Assembly: GCF_001975725.1 (NCBI RefSeq)
Contig: NZ_CP019434.1
Span: 1 to 64,000, forward strand
Reading direction: 5' to 3'
Origin: Acidihalobacter ferrooxydans
GTDB taxonomy: Bacteria > Pseudomonadota > Gammaproteobacteria > DSM-5130 > Acidihalobacteraceae
DNA length: 64,000 nt
In this document: positions 7,047 to 58,376 of the stretch, piece by piece
How positions within the stretch are numbered: position 1 is the first letter of the stretch
Layout of the letters: each line of letters opens with the position of its first letter
The notes under the pieces: model-generated
Databases searched by the model: none
The model's input: the letters and a program-made list of their open reading frames with translations, nothing else
Told to the model about the DNA's origin: nothing
Program-made: the position numbers and the translations under genes

Positions 7047-7973
7047 GTGATCGAGGCAGTGATTTTGCCCTTTTTGGATCCTGAGTACTGGCGCGGTTTG
7101 CCTGTTTCGACATTCTGGATATGGTGCCTGGGTGCTACGGTTGCGGGTTTTGGCGGTTTGTATCTGTTTCTTCGTAGCCTGATCCGCGCACGCACGATAG
7201 AGGATGTGCCGACTTCGCGGATTCGCTCGGCTAGCCAAGGCTACAATGAACTGATCGGAACGGGGCGCAATATGCCGGGGCCGCAGATCGTATCGCCGCT
7301 GAGCGGTCAGCCCTGCCTGTGGTATCGCTATCAAATCGACGAGAGAACGTCTTACGGTAACTCCGGCGAACGGGGGTGGAAAACCATCGAACGTTCGACA
7401 AGTCATGGGTTGTTTATCATCGAAGACGGCACCGGCGAATGCATCGTCGATCCTGAAGGTGCGCAGGTGATTCCGCATTTTGACCGACGTTGGTACGGCG
7501 ACAGTATGAGTGCCCGTAATGGCGGTTGGACGTTTACCGCGCAGTATCGATTTCGTGAGCAACGCATCGAAAAGGGCTATCCGCTGTATGTCATCGGCGA
7601 TTTTCGAACCTTGGGCAGTCCGTCTTGTGATATGCAAGACAATATTGCAGATGTGCTGCGGGAACTGAAAAAAGATCCGCAGCGCATGCACGCCTTCGAC
7701 CGTAATCGTGATGGCAGCGTCGATCAGAACGAATGGGAACTGGCGCGCCGCTGGGCAGAGCGCGAGTCGAGGCGGCGTGCCTTGAAAGAATCGCCCACAG
7801 AGGCGAGAAACGTTTTGTCACGAGGCGATGGGCAGCGCGCCTATATTCTTTCTGGTAAATCTGAGTCCGAATTGGTTGCCCGATATCGCGCGCAAGGTTT
7901 GGCTGGCCTGACTATGTTGCTGGGGGGGATTCCCACGGCGGTTTGGATGCTGCTTGCACGCTTCGCGGCATGA
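7047..7973 (+). CDS. GIDE-domain (E3-ligase-like) membrane protein with an EF-hand loop
   Basis: 308 residues starting with GTG. A membrane helix lies at about 22-44 and a second at about 288-304. Between them is a GIDE-type domain (PLSGQPCLWYRYQID... region), named after the mammalian mitochondrial E3 ligase MULAN/GIDE; no RING finger is visible, so ubiquitin ligase activity should not be assumed. Residues 218-229 read DRNRDGSVDQNE, which fits the canonical EF-hand calcium loop at positions 1, 3, 5, 6, 9 and 12. It directly follows lemA. The end of the frame overlaps an upstream extension of prlC, but the preferred prlC start lies beyond it. Confidence 0.8.
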   Translation: MIEAVILPFLDPEYWRGLPVSTFWIWCLGATVAGFGGLYLFLRSLIRARTIEDVPTSRIRSASQGYNELIGTGRNMPGPQIVSPLSGQPCLWYRYQIDERTSYGNSGERGWKTIERSTSHGLFIIEDGTGECIVDPEGAQVIPHFDRRWYGDSMSARNGGWTFTAQYRFREQRIEKGYPLYVIGDFRTLGSPSCDMQDNIADVLRELKKDPQRMHAFDRNRDGSVDQNEWELARRWAERESRRRALKESPTEARNVLSRGDGQRAYILSGKSESELVARYRAQGLAGLTMLLGGIPTAVWMLLARFAA

Positions 7974-52312: not shown

Positions 52313-52389
52313 CGGAGTGTAGCTCAGCTTGGTAGAGCACTGCCTTCGGGAGGCAGGGGTCGAAGGTTCGAATCCTTTCACTCCGACCA
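52313..52389 (+). tRNA. tRNA-Pro (anticodon CGG)
   Basis: 77 nt ending in an encoded CCA. Acceptor CGGAGTG pairs with CACTCCG; the C1 start is typical of proline tRNA. The anticodon stem CTGCC/GGCAG closes the loop TTCGGGA, giving anticodon CGG. The T arm has the standard GGTTCGAATCC. It reads codon CCG. Confidence 0.97.
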
Positions 52390-53400: not shown

Positions 53401-53596
53401 AGTGCCGCGCCCAGATATGTCCTTATTCGCTTCGGTCGCTTGATACGCCTAGTATATGTGGGCAGGCAGATCGCGCCGAACGACACCCGACGCCGAATTC
53501 GCGCAGTCGCGTTTTGGCGGCAAGCGCATGGCGGCGATTGACACATACTACAATTCCTAAGTACGAGCAACAGACCGGCCGCGGAGAAAGCACCGC

Positions 53597-54749
53597 ATGC
53601 GAACACCCCGACAGAAGTTACAACAGCGGTTCAGCCGCACGCCTTTTCTGGTCAGCAAAACCGCAGCTGGCGGGCGGGCAGACACGGAACCGGACACTGC
53701 GTTGGTCATCATTCTCGACGACCAACGCGTAGGCCGGGCCGTGTTGAGTGAGATCATCCGTGGTCTCGACCCCACGATCCGCATCGAAGCGAGCGGCGAT
53801 CCGCAGGAAGCCCTGTCGTTGGCTTCGCACACGCCGCCTGATCTTATCGTGACGGATTACAAAATGCCCGAGATGGATGGCCTGGAGTTCACCCGGCGCT
53901 TGCGCAACCTCAACAACTGCGAAGAAACGCCGCTGCTGATGGTCAGTATCGTCGATGATCGGGAACTGCTTTATCGTGCGCTCGAAGCCGGGGCATCGGA
54001 CTTCCTCTACCGCCCGATCGACCGCCACGAATGCATGGCGCGGGCGCGCAACCTCATGGCGCTCGGGCGACAGCAGCGCCTGGCGCGTCAGCGGGCGCGC
54101 TGGCTGGAAGAGCGCGTCGCTGAAGAAACCCGCGCATTGCTGGAGCGTGAGCGCGATCTGATCGCGCGCCTGGCTCGAATCGCAGAATGTCGCATGGGGT
54201 TGGACAACACGCACTACTGGCGTGTGGCCCGATACGCCCGTCTCATCGCCGAAGCGCTTGGCTTGCCGGCCAGCGAATGCGCGCAGATCGAACTGGCCGC
54301 GCAATTGCATGACATCGGGATGGCGGCGCTACCGGACAGGTTGGTTGCGCATGCCCGATCACTGTCCGGCGACGATGCCGAGCTCCTGTACGCGCATACC
54401 GATATCGGCTACGACCTGTTGCAAAATACGCCATCCCCGTTGTTGCGCCTTGCCGCGCAGATTGCGCGCTATCATCACGCGCACTGGGATGGGTCCGGTC
54501 ATCCGCCGGGGCTGGCGGGCGAGGATATCCCGCACGCCGCGCGCATCGTGGCGGTTGCTGATTACTATGATGCGTTGATCCGTGGGCCGCAGCATCAGGG
54601 GGGGCAGTGAGGAAGACGCGTTGCGCGAATTGATCAATGCCTCAGGCTCCATTCTCGAGCCGGCTTGCGTGCAGGCCTTTGTCGATCAGTTCGATGAAGT
54701 GCTGTGCGTGCAGCCGCCCGTAGACGATACGCCTGCGTTACCTAATTGA
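53597..54749 (+). pseudogene. rpfG: RpfG-like receiver plus HD-GYP protein, frameshifted at a G7 tract
   Basis: The first frame gives 337 residues to 54610: a receiver domain with phosphoacceptor D87 (IVTDYKMPEMDG) and an HD-GYP domain with H238-D239. After seven Gs at 54598-54604 the domain's last part continues in another frame (SEEDALRELINASGSILEPACVQAFVDQF...) to the stop at 54749, 26 bases before rpfC. One G fewer restores a single protein of about 383 residues. Signature residues are also altered: HDIGM for HDIGK, HHA for HHE, GHP for GYP. In Xanthomonas RpfG is the c-di-GMP phosphodiesterase partner of RpfC. Could be mutation, phase variation, slippage or a sequence error. Confidence 0.75.
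54598..54604 (+). repeat. G7 homopolymer at the rpfG frameshift
   Basis: Seven consecutive G residues lie exactly where the HD-GYP reading frame changes. Six would keep the frame open to 54749. Confidence 0.85.
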
Positions 54750-54775
54750 CCCCTCGGCCAAGCCAGAGCGGAATC

Positions 54776-57241
54776 ATGCAAGTCGTACTCCAACGCTTAG
54801 CATCACGTTGGACGCAGTGGCTGGCTAAGCGCCCGGACACTGAGCATGAACAGGCGATTTGGCGCATCGTCGTTGGCGGGGTTGCCGGCCTGTATTTCTG
54901 GTCGCCTTTTTTCGCGTTTCAAGCACCTGACCGGATGGCCCTCGATTTCATTCGAAACGGCATCCTCATTTTTATTTCCAGCGCGCTTGTTTTGCTGATT
55001 CATGTCGCGCTGCGAGAGGGGCCGAATCCGGCCCGTCGTTACATCGGCATGACGCTTGATCTCGCCACCACGAGCATTGGTATGGCGGTCGGTGGCGCGG
55101 GTGCATTTCCGCTGTTGGCCGTGTATCTGTGGGTCATTGTCGGCAATGGTTTTCGCTACGGTCGTTCTTACCTGTTTTTCGCCACTGTCATCGCGCTTGC
55201 CGGTTACACCACAGCCTCATTCTACAACCATACCTGGACGACAAATTTTGCTCTGTTTTCAAGCACGGTTGTGGTGCTTCTGGTCATTCCTTTTTACAGC
55301 TCATCACTGATCGCCAAGCTCCATCGAGCTGTGCAGCAGGCCCGCCAGGCAAGCGAGGCCAAGTCTCGCTTCATCTCCAACATGAGCCACGAATTGCGAA
55401 CGCCATTGAACGGCGTGATCGGTTCGGCCGATCTCATAGGTCAGACCCGTCTCGATCCAGAACAACGCGAACTGCTCAGTCTGCTTACCGGGTCGGCACA
55501 TTCGCTCCTAGGCCTGATCGAAGAAGTTCTCGATATATCCAAGATTGAGGCCGGCCACCTGACGATAAAACAGGCTCCATTCGACTTGTACCAGTTGTTG
55601 CACGACACCGCGCGGTTGCTCACCGTGCCGGCACAGGCCAAGGGGCTACGCCTCGATCTGATGATTGACCCGGCAATTCCGCCTCGAATGATTGGTGACG
55701 CACAACACTTCCGCCAGGCGCTCACCAATCTGCTCAGCAATTCGGTGAAATTTACAGAATGTGGCGGAATCACCCTTACTATTGATCTGCTTGAAATTAA
55801 TGGCGAACAAATACGCCTGCGTTGCACCGTCGCTGATACCGGTATCGGTATCAGCGAAACGGACCTCCCACTCGTTTTCGAGCGTTTTCGCCAAGCCGAC
55901 GAAGGCTCAACGAGGAAATTCGGCGGTACTGGCTTGGGTACGGCGATCACCAAAAACCTGATTGAATTGATGGGCGGACAGATTCACGTCGAGAGTCGGG
56001 TGGGGCATGGCAGCCGGTTTTGGTTCGAGTTGCCGCTGCAGTGCGATCAACAACATAAGGAGCCACCTGCCGTTGCACTGGATACGGTGTGGCTGATGAC
56101 TGGACCTGAAGAAGCCAAACTTTTGTACCCGCTGCTCTCCGAGCACGTACCTTCGGTGAAGCAAGTCAGTGGACCGATTCCATCGCACATACAGGGACAG
56201 CGCATTGCCCTGATCGCGGATCTTGCGCTCATTTCCCAGCAGGCGCCGGACACCGAATTGCCAGTGATCGGCCTCAGTGCGTCCGGCAAGCACACAGAGC
56301 CTTATCATCCGCCTGGGCTAATGACCATGCTGCCAAGTATCTGGTCGCCACAGATGCTGCTCAATGCGCTGCAGATTGTCGCGACACCCTATACGCGGAT
56401 GCCTGCGCTCCACGCCACCGATGCGGACCAGACGATGACGGCTGGTGTGGCGCTCAATGTGCTCGTCGCGGAAGACAATGCCGTCAATCGGCGCTTAGTG
56501 GAGCGCATTTTATTAAATGCCGGGCATACTGTAACTCTGGTTGAAGACGGCGAATCAGCGCTGGATTTGATTGGCGAAGACCCGCAACGATTTGAAGCGG
56601 TCATCCTTGATATGCACATGCCCAAGCGAAGCGGTATGGAGGTCGCCAAAGCACTCCGATTCACGCATTCGGACATCCGTACACCGCTGATCATGCTCTC
56701 TGCGGATGCCACTACCTCGACCATCGAAAACAGCCGCAGGGCTGGTTTTGATGCATATTTGACGAAGCCGATCGACGCGGCACGATTGCTCAAGTTGCTG
56801 CAAGAACTGCATAACAACCGCCCGCAACCGAATGATGCCCTGGCCAAAACCCGTATCGAACAGGCGCCGCCGCTGCTCAATCCGAATGTGCTCCGCAATC
56901 TCGAACTGCTCGGTAGTGATCAGCACTTCGTCGTACGTCTAGTGCAGGACTACGTTGAAGATGCCCGGCCGCAGCTTGCGCGCATGCGTACGGCGTATCA
57001 CGCACAGGATTTTTCTGCCTGGCGCAACGCTGCCCATGCGCTTCGTGGTTCTTCAGCGGAACTTGGGTGTGATCGTCTCGTCATGCTGTGCGGCAATGCT
57101 GAGCGGTTGAAAAATTACGAAATCGGCGCACCGCAGACGCATCGATTGCTCGAACAGATCGACCGCGCCTTCCGCTTGACCCACGCCGAACTGTTGCAGT
57201 TCATCAATGGGCATTTGATCGTGCATCCGGCAAAAAAATAG
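54776..57241 (+). CDS. rpfC: RpfC-like hybrid sensor histidine kinase of the DSF system
   Basis: 821 residues from ATG 54776. Five membrane helices (about 30-175) form the input domain, followed by the kinase core with H205 (NMSHELRTPLNG), N box NLLSNSVKF, DTGIGIS and FGGTGLG, a receiver domain with its aspartate in VILDMHMPKRSG, and a C-terminal HPt domain (AAHALRGSSAELG). This order and length match RpfC of Xanthomonas (phosphohistidine 198). It lies directly after the rpfG-like gene and converges on rpfF. It probably senses a cis-2-unsaturated fatty acid signal. Confidence 0.9.
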   Translation: MQVVLQRLASRWTQWLAKRPDTEHEQAIWRIVVGGVAGLYFWSPFFAFQAPDRMALDFIRNGILIFISSALVLLIHVALREGPNPARRYIGMTLDLATTSIGMAVGGAGAFPLLAVYLWVIVGNGFRYGRSYLFFATVIALAGYTTASFYNHTWTTNFALFSSTVVVLLVIPFYSSSLIAKLHRAVQQARQASEAKSRFISNMSHELRTPLNGVIGSADLIGQTRLDPEQRELLSLLTGSAHSLLGLIEEVLDISKIEAGHLTIKQAPFDLYQLLHDTARLLTVPAQAKGLRLDLMIDPAIPPRMIGDAQHFRQALTNLLSNSVKFTECGGITLTIDLLEINGEQIRLRCTVADTGIGISETDLPLVFERFRQADEGSTRKFGGTGLGTAITKNLIELMGGQIHVESRVGHGSRFWFELPLQCDQQHKEPPAVALDTVWLMTGPEEAKLLYPLLSEHVPSVKQVSGPIPSHIQGQRIALIADLALISQQAPDTELPVIGLSASGKHTEPYHPPGLMTMLPSIWSPQMLLNALQIVATPYTRMPALHATDADQTMTAGVALNVLVAEDNAVNRRLVERILLNAGHTVTLVEDGESALDLIGEDPQRFEAVILDMHMPKRSGMEVAKALRFTHSDIRTPLIMLSADATTSTIENSRRAGFDAYLTKPIDAARLLKLLQELHNNRPQPNDALAKTRIEQAPPLLNPNVLRNLELLGSDQHFVVRLVQDYVEDARPQLARMRTAYHAQDFSAWRNAAHALRGSSAELGCDRLVMLCGNAERLKNYEIGAPQTHRLLEQIDRAFRLTHAELLQFINGHLIVHPAKK

Positions 57242-57280
57242 GCAACCCCGCGCCTTTGGCGACTCGGGGTTGCCCATTAT
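57231..57280. terminator. Bidirectional terminator between rpfC and rpfF
   Basis: Perfect 10-bp stem GGCAACCCCG (57241-57250) and CGGGGTTGCC (57265-57274). On the minus strand the stem is followed by a T-rich run (complement of CAAAAAAATA), a strong terminator for rpfF; on the plus strand the tail is weaker. Confidence 0.8.
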
Positions 57281-57282
57281 GC

Positions 57283-58146
57283 TCAGGCCATCTCCACGGC
57301 CGACGCACGCTTGCTCTGGCGCTTCACCAGACGTTCCATCATTCGTAAATCGCGTGTTGTCAGGCGGAGTGCGGCGTCGACCCATACCTCTGTGATGCCA
57401 TGCAATTCAGCATAGGATACCGGGCTACACAGGCGTTTGGCCTGGCGCAGCGCGCGGACGCCGTTTGCGTGATGGGCCTCGGCTTCGAGGAACGTATACA
57501 CCGCATGTTCACCCTCTCCCGTCTCGGCTAGCACATCGACCACGCCCATTTCATGCAGTTCTTCGGCCGAAAATACTTGTCCGGACAATATCAGTCGCTC
57601 GGCAGCTTTAAGCCCGATGCGCCGTGACAACAGCGTGAGCGCCCCCATGCCGGGAAATAAATTGAACAGAATCTCCGGCATACCCATACGTGCATGTCGT
57701 TCGGCAATCAGCACATCACCCGCCAATGCGGCTTCAAAACCGCCGCCCAGCGCATCGCCTTGGACGAGTGCGATGCCGGTAACGGATCGGCCGAAACCGG
57801 TCGTTGGTGCATAGACCATATCGATACAAGCCGTCGCGTAGCGTAGCAAGCCGGCGCGGTCGCCCGCATCGATCAGTTGACGGAATAAATTGAGATCGCC
57901 ACCGAGGTTGAACACATCGGGGACAGAGGAAGCCAGCACCAGATAACTGACTTCGCCCAAGGCTCCGCTACTCAATGCGGAAAACTCTCCGGCAAGCTCA
58001 TCGAGCAAATCAGGCGTAAAACAAGGTCTCGGTTCGGCATGCATATAACACCATTCGACACCGCCGTAACGGGAATCGAAATAGCGACTCAAAACAGAAT
58101 TTTTGCTGGTGTTGGAAAATGGCGATTGACGGCGAATGTTGTCCAT
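57283..58146 (-). CDS. rpfF: DSF synthase RpfF (crotonase family)
   Basis: Makes diffusible signal factor, a cis-2-unsaturated fatty acid, from acyl-ACP by dehydration and thioester cleavage. 287 residues (Xanthomonas RpfF 289). The oxyanion-hole region VFNLGGDLNLF, and the two catalytic glutamates E138 (GDALGGGFEAAL) and E158 (MGMPEILFNLFPGMG) match E141 and E161 of the Xanthomonas enzyme. The C-terminal ITEVWVDAALRL and MERLVKRQSKR are also RpfF-like. It converges on rpfC. Confidence 0.93.
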   Translation of the reverse strand: MDNIRRQSPFSNTSKNSVLSRYFDSRYGGVEWCYMHAEPRPCFTPDLLDELAGEFSALSSGALGEVSYLVLASSVPDVFNLGGDLNLFRQLIDAGDRAGLLRYATACIDMVYAPTTGFGRSVTGIALVQGDALGGGFEAALAGDVLIAERHARMGMPEILFNLFPGMGALTLLSRRIGLKAAERLILSGQVFSAEELHEMGVVDVLAETGEGEHAVYTFLEAEAHHANGVRALRQAKRLCSPVSYAELHGITEVWVDAALRLTTRDLRMMERLVKRQSKRASAVEMA

Positions 58147-58376
58147 GTGGGTATCCTCATCGAAAATAAACGTTAGAAGGCAGCTCAGACCACAACTTGT
58201 TGAGGTCTATGACCAGCTTATGCCTAAACGATCGACGAGTTGAGCAAAAACGCATTGGCCGTCATCAGCACAGCCAATGCGTGCATTACACCGATTCTGT
58301 TCGGGGGGGTGCTAACAGGCGCCGCAAAAAGCGCAAGCAGCCGCATCGACGGCTGTGAATGCGGCGAGCTTTATGC

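Follow-up and report, generated by a model that had tools for sequence, protein, structure and literature searches.

We analysed a window of 64,000 bases at the start (positions 1-64000) of a single contig of 3,448,835 bases. The organism, Acidihalobacter ferrooxidans DSM 14175 (V8), is a halotolerant acidophile that oxidises iron and sulfur (PMC5477407). Three genes, rpfG, rpfC and rpfF, are present between engB and thrB (Table 1), as the original prediction had placed them. Judged from the sequence, the identification of a real RpfF/RpfC/RpfG-type DSF locus is sound, because RpfF has the glutamate pair and falls in the RpfF clade, and RpfC has the near-invariant residues and the DSF-binding motif. 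The strong hairpin between the convergent rpfC and rpfF is a probable rpfF terminator. A further terminator-like hairpin with a T run was seen at 58250-58282 (- strand), 3' of thrB, between thrB and rpfF. No Rfam element was found in the cluster, the sole nearby match being a tRNA at 52313-52386, and the matches of a promoter scan were not above chance level.

Table 1. Coordinates of the rpf cluster and its features in the window
Feature	Position	Strand	Basis or remark
rpf-cluster segment, between engB and thrB	53401..58376	.	cluster missing at the site in four family relatives
rpfG-like gene, REC + HD-GYP domain	53597..54610	+	early stop as assembled
rpfG codon 200, Met vs Asp in relatives	54194..54196	+	PmGH D183, needed for hydrolysis
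rpfG codon 242, Met vs Lys in relatives	54320..54322	+	HDxGK; PmGH K225, needed for hydrolysis
rpfG HHAHWDGSGHP: HHE E to A (codon 295), GYP Y to H (codon 302)	54479..54502	+	
G7 run where the rpfG frame is lost	54598..54604	+	
Remaining HD-GYP C-terminus, +1 frame (SEEDALRELINASGSILEPACVQAFVDQFDEVL...)	54606..54749	+	GC by codon position is coding-like
rpfC-like gene, hybrid kinase with 5 hydrophobic segments, then HisKA, HATPase_c, REC, HPt	54776..57241	+	
RPDTEHEQ, DSF-binding motif of RpfC	54830..54853	+	vs Xcc RADSEHAQ (R15, D17, S18, E19, Q22)
Strong hairpin between rpfC and rpfF	57241..57274	.	z -4.0; T run on rpfF side
rpfF-like DSF synthase, crotonase superfamily	57283..58146	-	
RpfF E158 codon (= Xcc RpfF E161)	57673..57675	-	alignment
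RpfF E138 codon (= Xcc RpfF E141)	57733..57735	-	alignment

In Xanthomonas, rpfGHC adjoins rpfF and is convergent with it (PMC4504480). The same order, an rpfG-rpfC operon convergent with rpfF, was found here. Among 80 named loci, which were chosen by similarity to the query so that prevalence figures taken from them are biased, 29 combined an HD-GYP rpfG with rpfF and rpfC in convergent orientation. Thus, this layout is the usual one, and the earlier description of the locus as differently arranged from that of Xanthomonas does not hold. Another 14 convergent loci had a REC protein without an HD-GYP match, which was REC-GGDEF-EAL in the 4 that were examined. REC-GGDEF-EAL replaces REC-HD-GYP beside rpfC at L065:11572-13698, L071:11419-13653, L080:8915-11299 and L105:7406-9565; the hosts are Alphaproteobacteria (Gluconacetobacter, Pseudovibrio and a Beijerinckiaceae MAG) and one Ectothiorhodospiraceae MAG. 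At L048, L050, L083 (Zetaproteobacteria), L068 and L085, rpfF and rpfC are convergent and no rpfG-like gene adjoins rpfC, with the contig continuing.

RpfF has a Pfam ECH_1 match, and in the PDB it matched the RpfF of X. campestris (3m6m) at E = 4e-60, with an identity of about 39%. Among solved structures, the RpfF proteins matched at E near 1e-60 and the next crotonase at 1e-17. The crotonase was expected to carry both RpfF glutamates; E138 and E158 are indeed there, and both are invariant across 14 aligned RpfF-type proteins. We defined a near-invariant column as one in which no more than one sequence deviates, and RpfF was changed at 0 of 24 such columns (93 rows). A tree of 99 rows, including three ordinary crotonases as outgroup, placed the query inside the RpfF clade and away from the ordinary crotonases, with all RpfF-type rows apart from the outgroup, whose branches were long. 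The query belonged to a 36-row group (SH-aLRT 96) that includes Thiobacillus, Thioalkalivibrio, Acidithiobacillus ferrivorans, Leptospirillum and Zetaproteobacteria. The NCBIfam RpfF equivalog NF053515 gave 241.6 bits, below its 550-bit cut-off, which is a naming threshold and not a biological defining feature; the broader PRK08788 family was passed with a score of 363 (cut-off 177).

The original prediction of a five-helix hybrid kinase with receiver and HPt domains in RpfC order agrees with both the Pfam order (HisKA, HATPase_c, Response_reg, Hpt) and the five hydrophobic stretches at the N-terminus (residues 40-59, 64-93, 106-136, 141-159 and 163-193), which were assigned as transmembrane segments by hydropathy only. 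The start is more plausibly the ATG at 54776 than the TTG at 54746. In Xcc, RpfC needs R15, D17, S18, E19 and Q22 for DSF sensing, and the S18T variant is functional (PMC5391125); the query has R, D, T, E and Q at these positions. RpfC was changed at 0 of 58 near-invariant columns (55 rows), and its own branch is long (1.29). The top PDB match of its REC-HPt part was the Xcc RpfC REC domain, and no PDB homologue was found for the input domain. RpfC-input-like extra proteins, which recall Xanthomonas rpfH, adjoin rpfC in two other loci (L072, 11701-13448; L104, 11644-13753).

The gene adjoining the kinase has Pfam Response_reg and HD_5/HD matches, as had been predicted for a receiver/HD-GYP gene, and its REC domain with the phospho-acceptor Asp is joined to HD-GYP. 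However, RpfG was changed at 13 of 70 near-invariant columns (33 rows), and every other RpfG was changed at 3 or fewer. Four of these changes (R331P, Y333H, K334Q and W337Q) lie at or just 5' of a frameshift, and 9 are left without them. At D183M, K225M, E295A and Y302H, the canonical residue was found in 31-32 of 32 relatives. D183, K225, HHE and GYP, all expected of an active HD-GYP phosphodiesterase, are replaced by M, M, HHA and GHP. Ala mutation of D183 or K225 abolishes hydrolysis in PmGH, whereas Y285A does not (PMC4159591). In PmGH numbering, the query keeps H189, H221, D222, H250, H276, H277, D305 and D308. Seven of the eight metal ligands are therefore kept (H189, H221, D222, H250, H276, H277 and D305); the eighth, E185, is L, but this position is variable, with Gly in Xcc RpfG (PMC4159591). 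Single residues predict HD-GYP activity imperfectly: VCA0681 is active without the D308 of PmGH (PMC4212101).

RpfG is also the longest branch of the RpfG tree (3.2 vs a median of 0.37). Its AlphaFold model retains the REC domain and a helical HD core (pLDDT 86), and a fold search with this model returned REC and HD-GYP only (PA4781, PmGH). HDLGK, HHE and GYP are all present in the second HD-GYP protein of this genome (C1:2699664). Elsewhere, L094:6568-7662 is a second RpfG that has lost part of the signature residues (HDIGR; P in place of the metal ligand H189, Y in place of D308), and it also has a long branch.

The early stop of rpfG is owing to the frame at the G7 run, and recognisable HD-GYP sequence resumes in the +1 frame. 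The part lost as assembled includes the RPYK residues, which are guanine contacts in PmGH. This frameshift could stem from an error of assembly; the genome was sequenced with 13x Illumina plus PacBio (PMC5477407). However, an indel error cannot produce substitutions, so the residue changes of RpfG would be left unexplained by it. Programmed frameshifting at G7 was considered and rejected, because the downstream frame is +1 and out of reach of a -1 slip. Other G7 runs of the window are at 58303-58309, in the rpfF-thrB intergenic region, and at 7922-7928. Because the catalytic residues and the C-terminus of RpfG are lost, the claim of a complete DSF locus can be kept only in part: a DSF locus is supported by phylogeny, domain order and the catalytic and DSF-binding residues, but its completeness is doubtful.

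We compared the engB-thrB site with that of four family relatives (G001-G004). The two genes are end to end in all of them, a few bp apart in the same-genus G001 and overlapping by ~20 bp in G002-G004. Neither an RpfF-level match nor the RpfC input (sensor) domain was found in these four genomes. Because engB and thrB are adjacent and the cluster is missing there, a single gain in the A. ferrooxidans lineage is the simplest history, from which we infer gain rather than loss; alternatively, the pattern may be explained by precise loss in two lineages. The tetranucleotide composition of the insert is ordinary, with no foreign signature. Therefore, the gain would be old or at least not recent, or else the history would be one of loss elsewhere. 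No 9-mer was common to the two intergenic flanks, and the weak repeats that were seen lie inside the segment.

The system had been expected to be uncommon in a sulfur oxidiser outside the Xanthomonadales. Of 75 relatives sampled, however, 12 had an RpfF-level match, mostly as a single genome in each family of the class, and clusters are published for other genera, so that the expectation is not supported. Clusters have been listed for Thiobacillus, Leptospirillum, Methylophaga, Methylobacillus and Acidithiobacillus (PMC4504480, PMC9040811). Taken together, the clusters published and those found here cover Thiobacillus, Acidithiobacillus, Leptospirillum, Methylophaga and Zetaproteobacteria; in a sulfur oxidiser, rpf genes are therefore not unusual. 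The DSF system itself is known, and rpf clusters of acidophiles and sulfur oxidisers are already published (PMC9040811, PMC4504480, PMC8357829). For Acidihalobacter, no mention of DSF or Rpf was found in the literature searched, most subscription journals being outside its reach.

The locus resembles rpfF/rpfGHC of Xanthomonas campestris (PMC4504480, PMC5391125) in having rpfG-rpfC convergent with rpfF, a synthase with both Glu residues, an RpfC that has the RxD(S/T)EHxQ sensing segment and in which HisKA, HATPase, REC and HPt follow five TM segments, and an RpfG of REC and HD-GYP. It differs in lacking rpfH and an adjacent rpfB, in the limited identity of RpfF given above, and in an RpfG without D183, K225, the HHE Glu and the GYP Tyr that is shortened as assembled. 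The nearest RpfF relatives, from Thiobacillus, Thioalkalivibrio, Acidithiobacillus ferrivorans and Zetaproteobacteria (L034, L038, L040, L041, L061, L064), have the same convergent layout, but unlike the query their RpfGs keep the HD-GYP signature. Leptospirillum, likewise an acidophilic mineral oxidiser, has the same three proteins as rpfFCG, and DSF-family compounds have been detected in its cultures (PMC8357829); its cluster is unidirectional, whereas the query rpfF is convergent. The crotonase-type synthase is shared with the RpfF-RpfR systems of Burkholderia and Cronobacter, but the query sensor is RpfC and not the PAS-GGDEF-EAL protein RpfR.

Taken from sequence comparison, the explanation that we consider probable is that a genuine Xanthomonas-type DSF cassette was gained between engB and thrB and that its c-di-GMP hydrolysis arm has been lost or strongly reduced. 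RpfF would convert acyl-ACP to a cis-2-unsaturated fatty acid. The membrane kinase RpfC would bind this signal via its short N-terminal RPDTEHEQ segment and pass phosphate through HisKA, REC and HPt. As in Xanthomonas, the REC domain of RpfC may in addition hold RpfF in check. The final step, in which phosphorylated RpfG would hydrolyse c-di-GMP, has probably been lost or strongly reduced.

Two other readings are finer versions of this explanation, and for this reason our confidences in them overlap with that in it. In the first, rpfG is a decaying pseudogene and selection remains on the RpfF-RpfC pair only. The number of changed conserved positions, the longest branch and the frameshift would fit such decay, as would the loci with rpfF-rpfC and no adjoining rpfG (several, e.g. 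L048, L050 and L083). However, apart from the frameshift the frame runs open for 337 codons, GC by codon position is normal and the metal ligands are kept. We regard decay as possible and would not favour it. In the second, which we likewise regard as possible without favouring it, RpfG is a pseudo-phosphodiesterase that is still phosphorylated by RpfC and works through the binding of c-di-GMP, metal or partner proteins rather than through hydrolysis. The pattern of change appears selective, with metal ligands and REC Asp kept and the catalytic pair lost, the REC domain and helical HD core are modelled at high confidence, and non-catalytic protein contacts are known for RpfG (PMC4159591); against this, the losses also include the GYP Tyr, to which a part in GGDEF contacts is ascribed, and, as assembled, the C-terminal claw. 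It is somewhat unlikely, and offered as speculation, that DSF is made, sensed and read out without c-di-GMP hydrolysis through a phosphorylatable, metal-binding pseudo-enzyme, possibly with on/off switching of the C-terminus at G7.

A fully working canonical DSF system, in which the G7 frameshift is a sequencing error, the substitutions are tolerated and RpfG degrades c-di-GMP, seems improbable to us. In its favour, RpfG retains the REC Asp and every other metal ligand, the +1 frame downstream is still an HD-GYP C-terminus, and Illumina depth is low (PMC5477407). However, Met stands at both D183 and K225, and Ala at either position inactivates PmGH; all 32 relatives have the HHE E and the GYP Y, whereas the query has neither; and these substitutions cannot arise from indel error. 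That RpfF is an ordinary enoyl-CoA hydratase beside a kinase unrelated to DSF is hardly credible, since only the missed NCBIfam equivalog cut-off speaks for it and the tree, the best PDB matches, the invariant residues and the convergent rpfC with its DSF-sensing motif speak against it.

The finding would extend DSF signalling to halotolerant biomining acidophiles. In Leptospirillum leaching cultures, biofilm dispersal and competitor suppression by DSF have been reported (PMC9040811). With RpfF and RpfC so well kept and the RpfG next to them degenerate, the locus also raises a testable question, whether an RpfC circuit can run without the phosphodiesterase activity of RpfG. The genome has 26 GGDEF matches, two HD-GYP matches and several AMP-binding ligases. 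Given this GGDEF and HD-GYP complement, a c-di-GMP network exists for other readouts, and the AMP-binding ligases could serve as RpfB.
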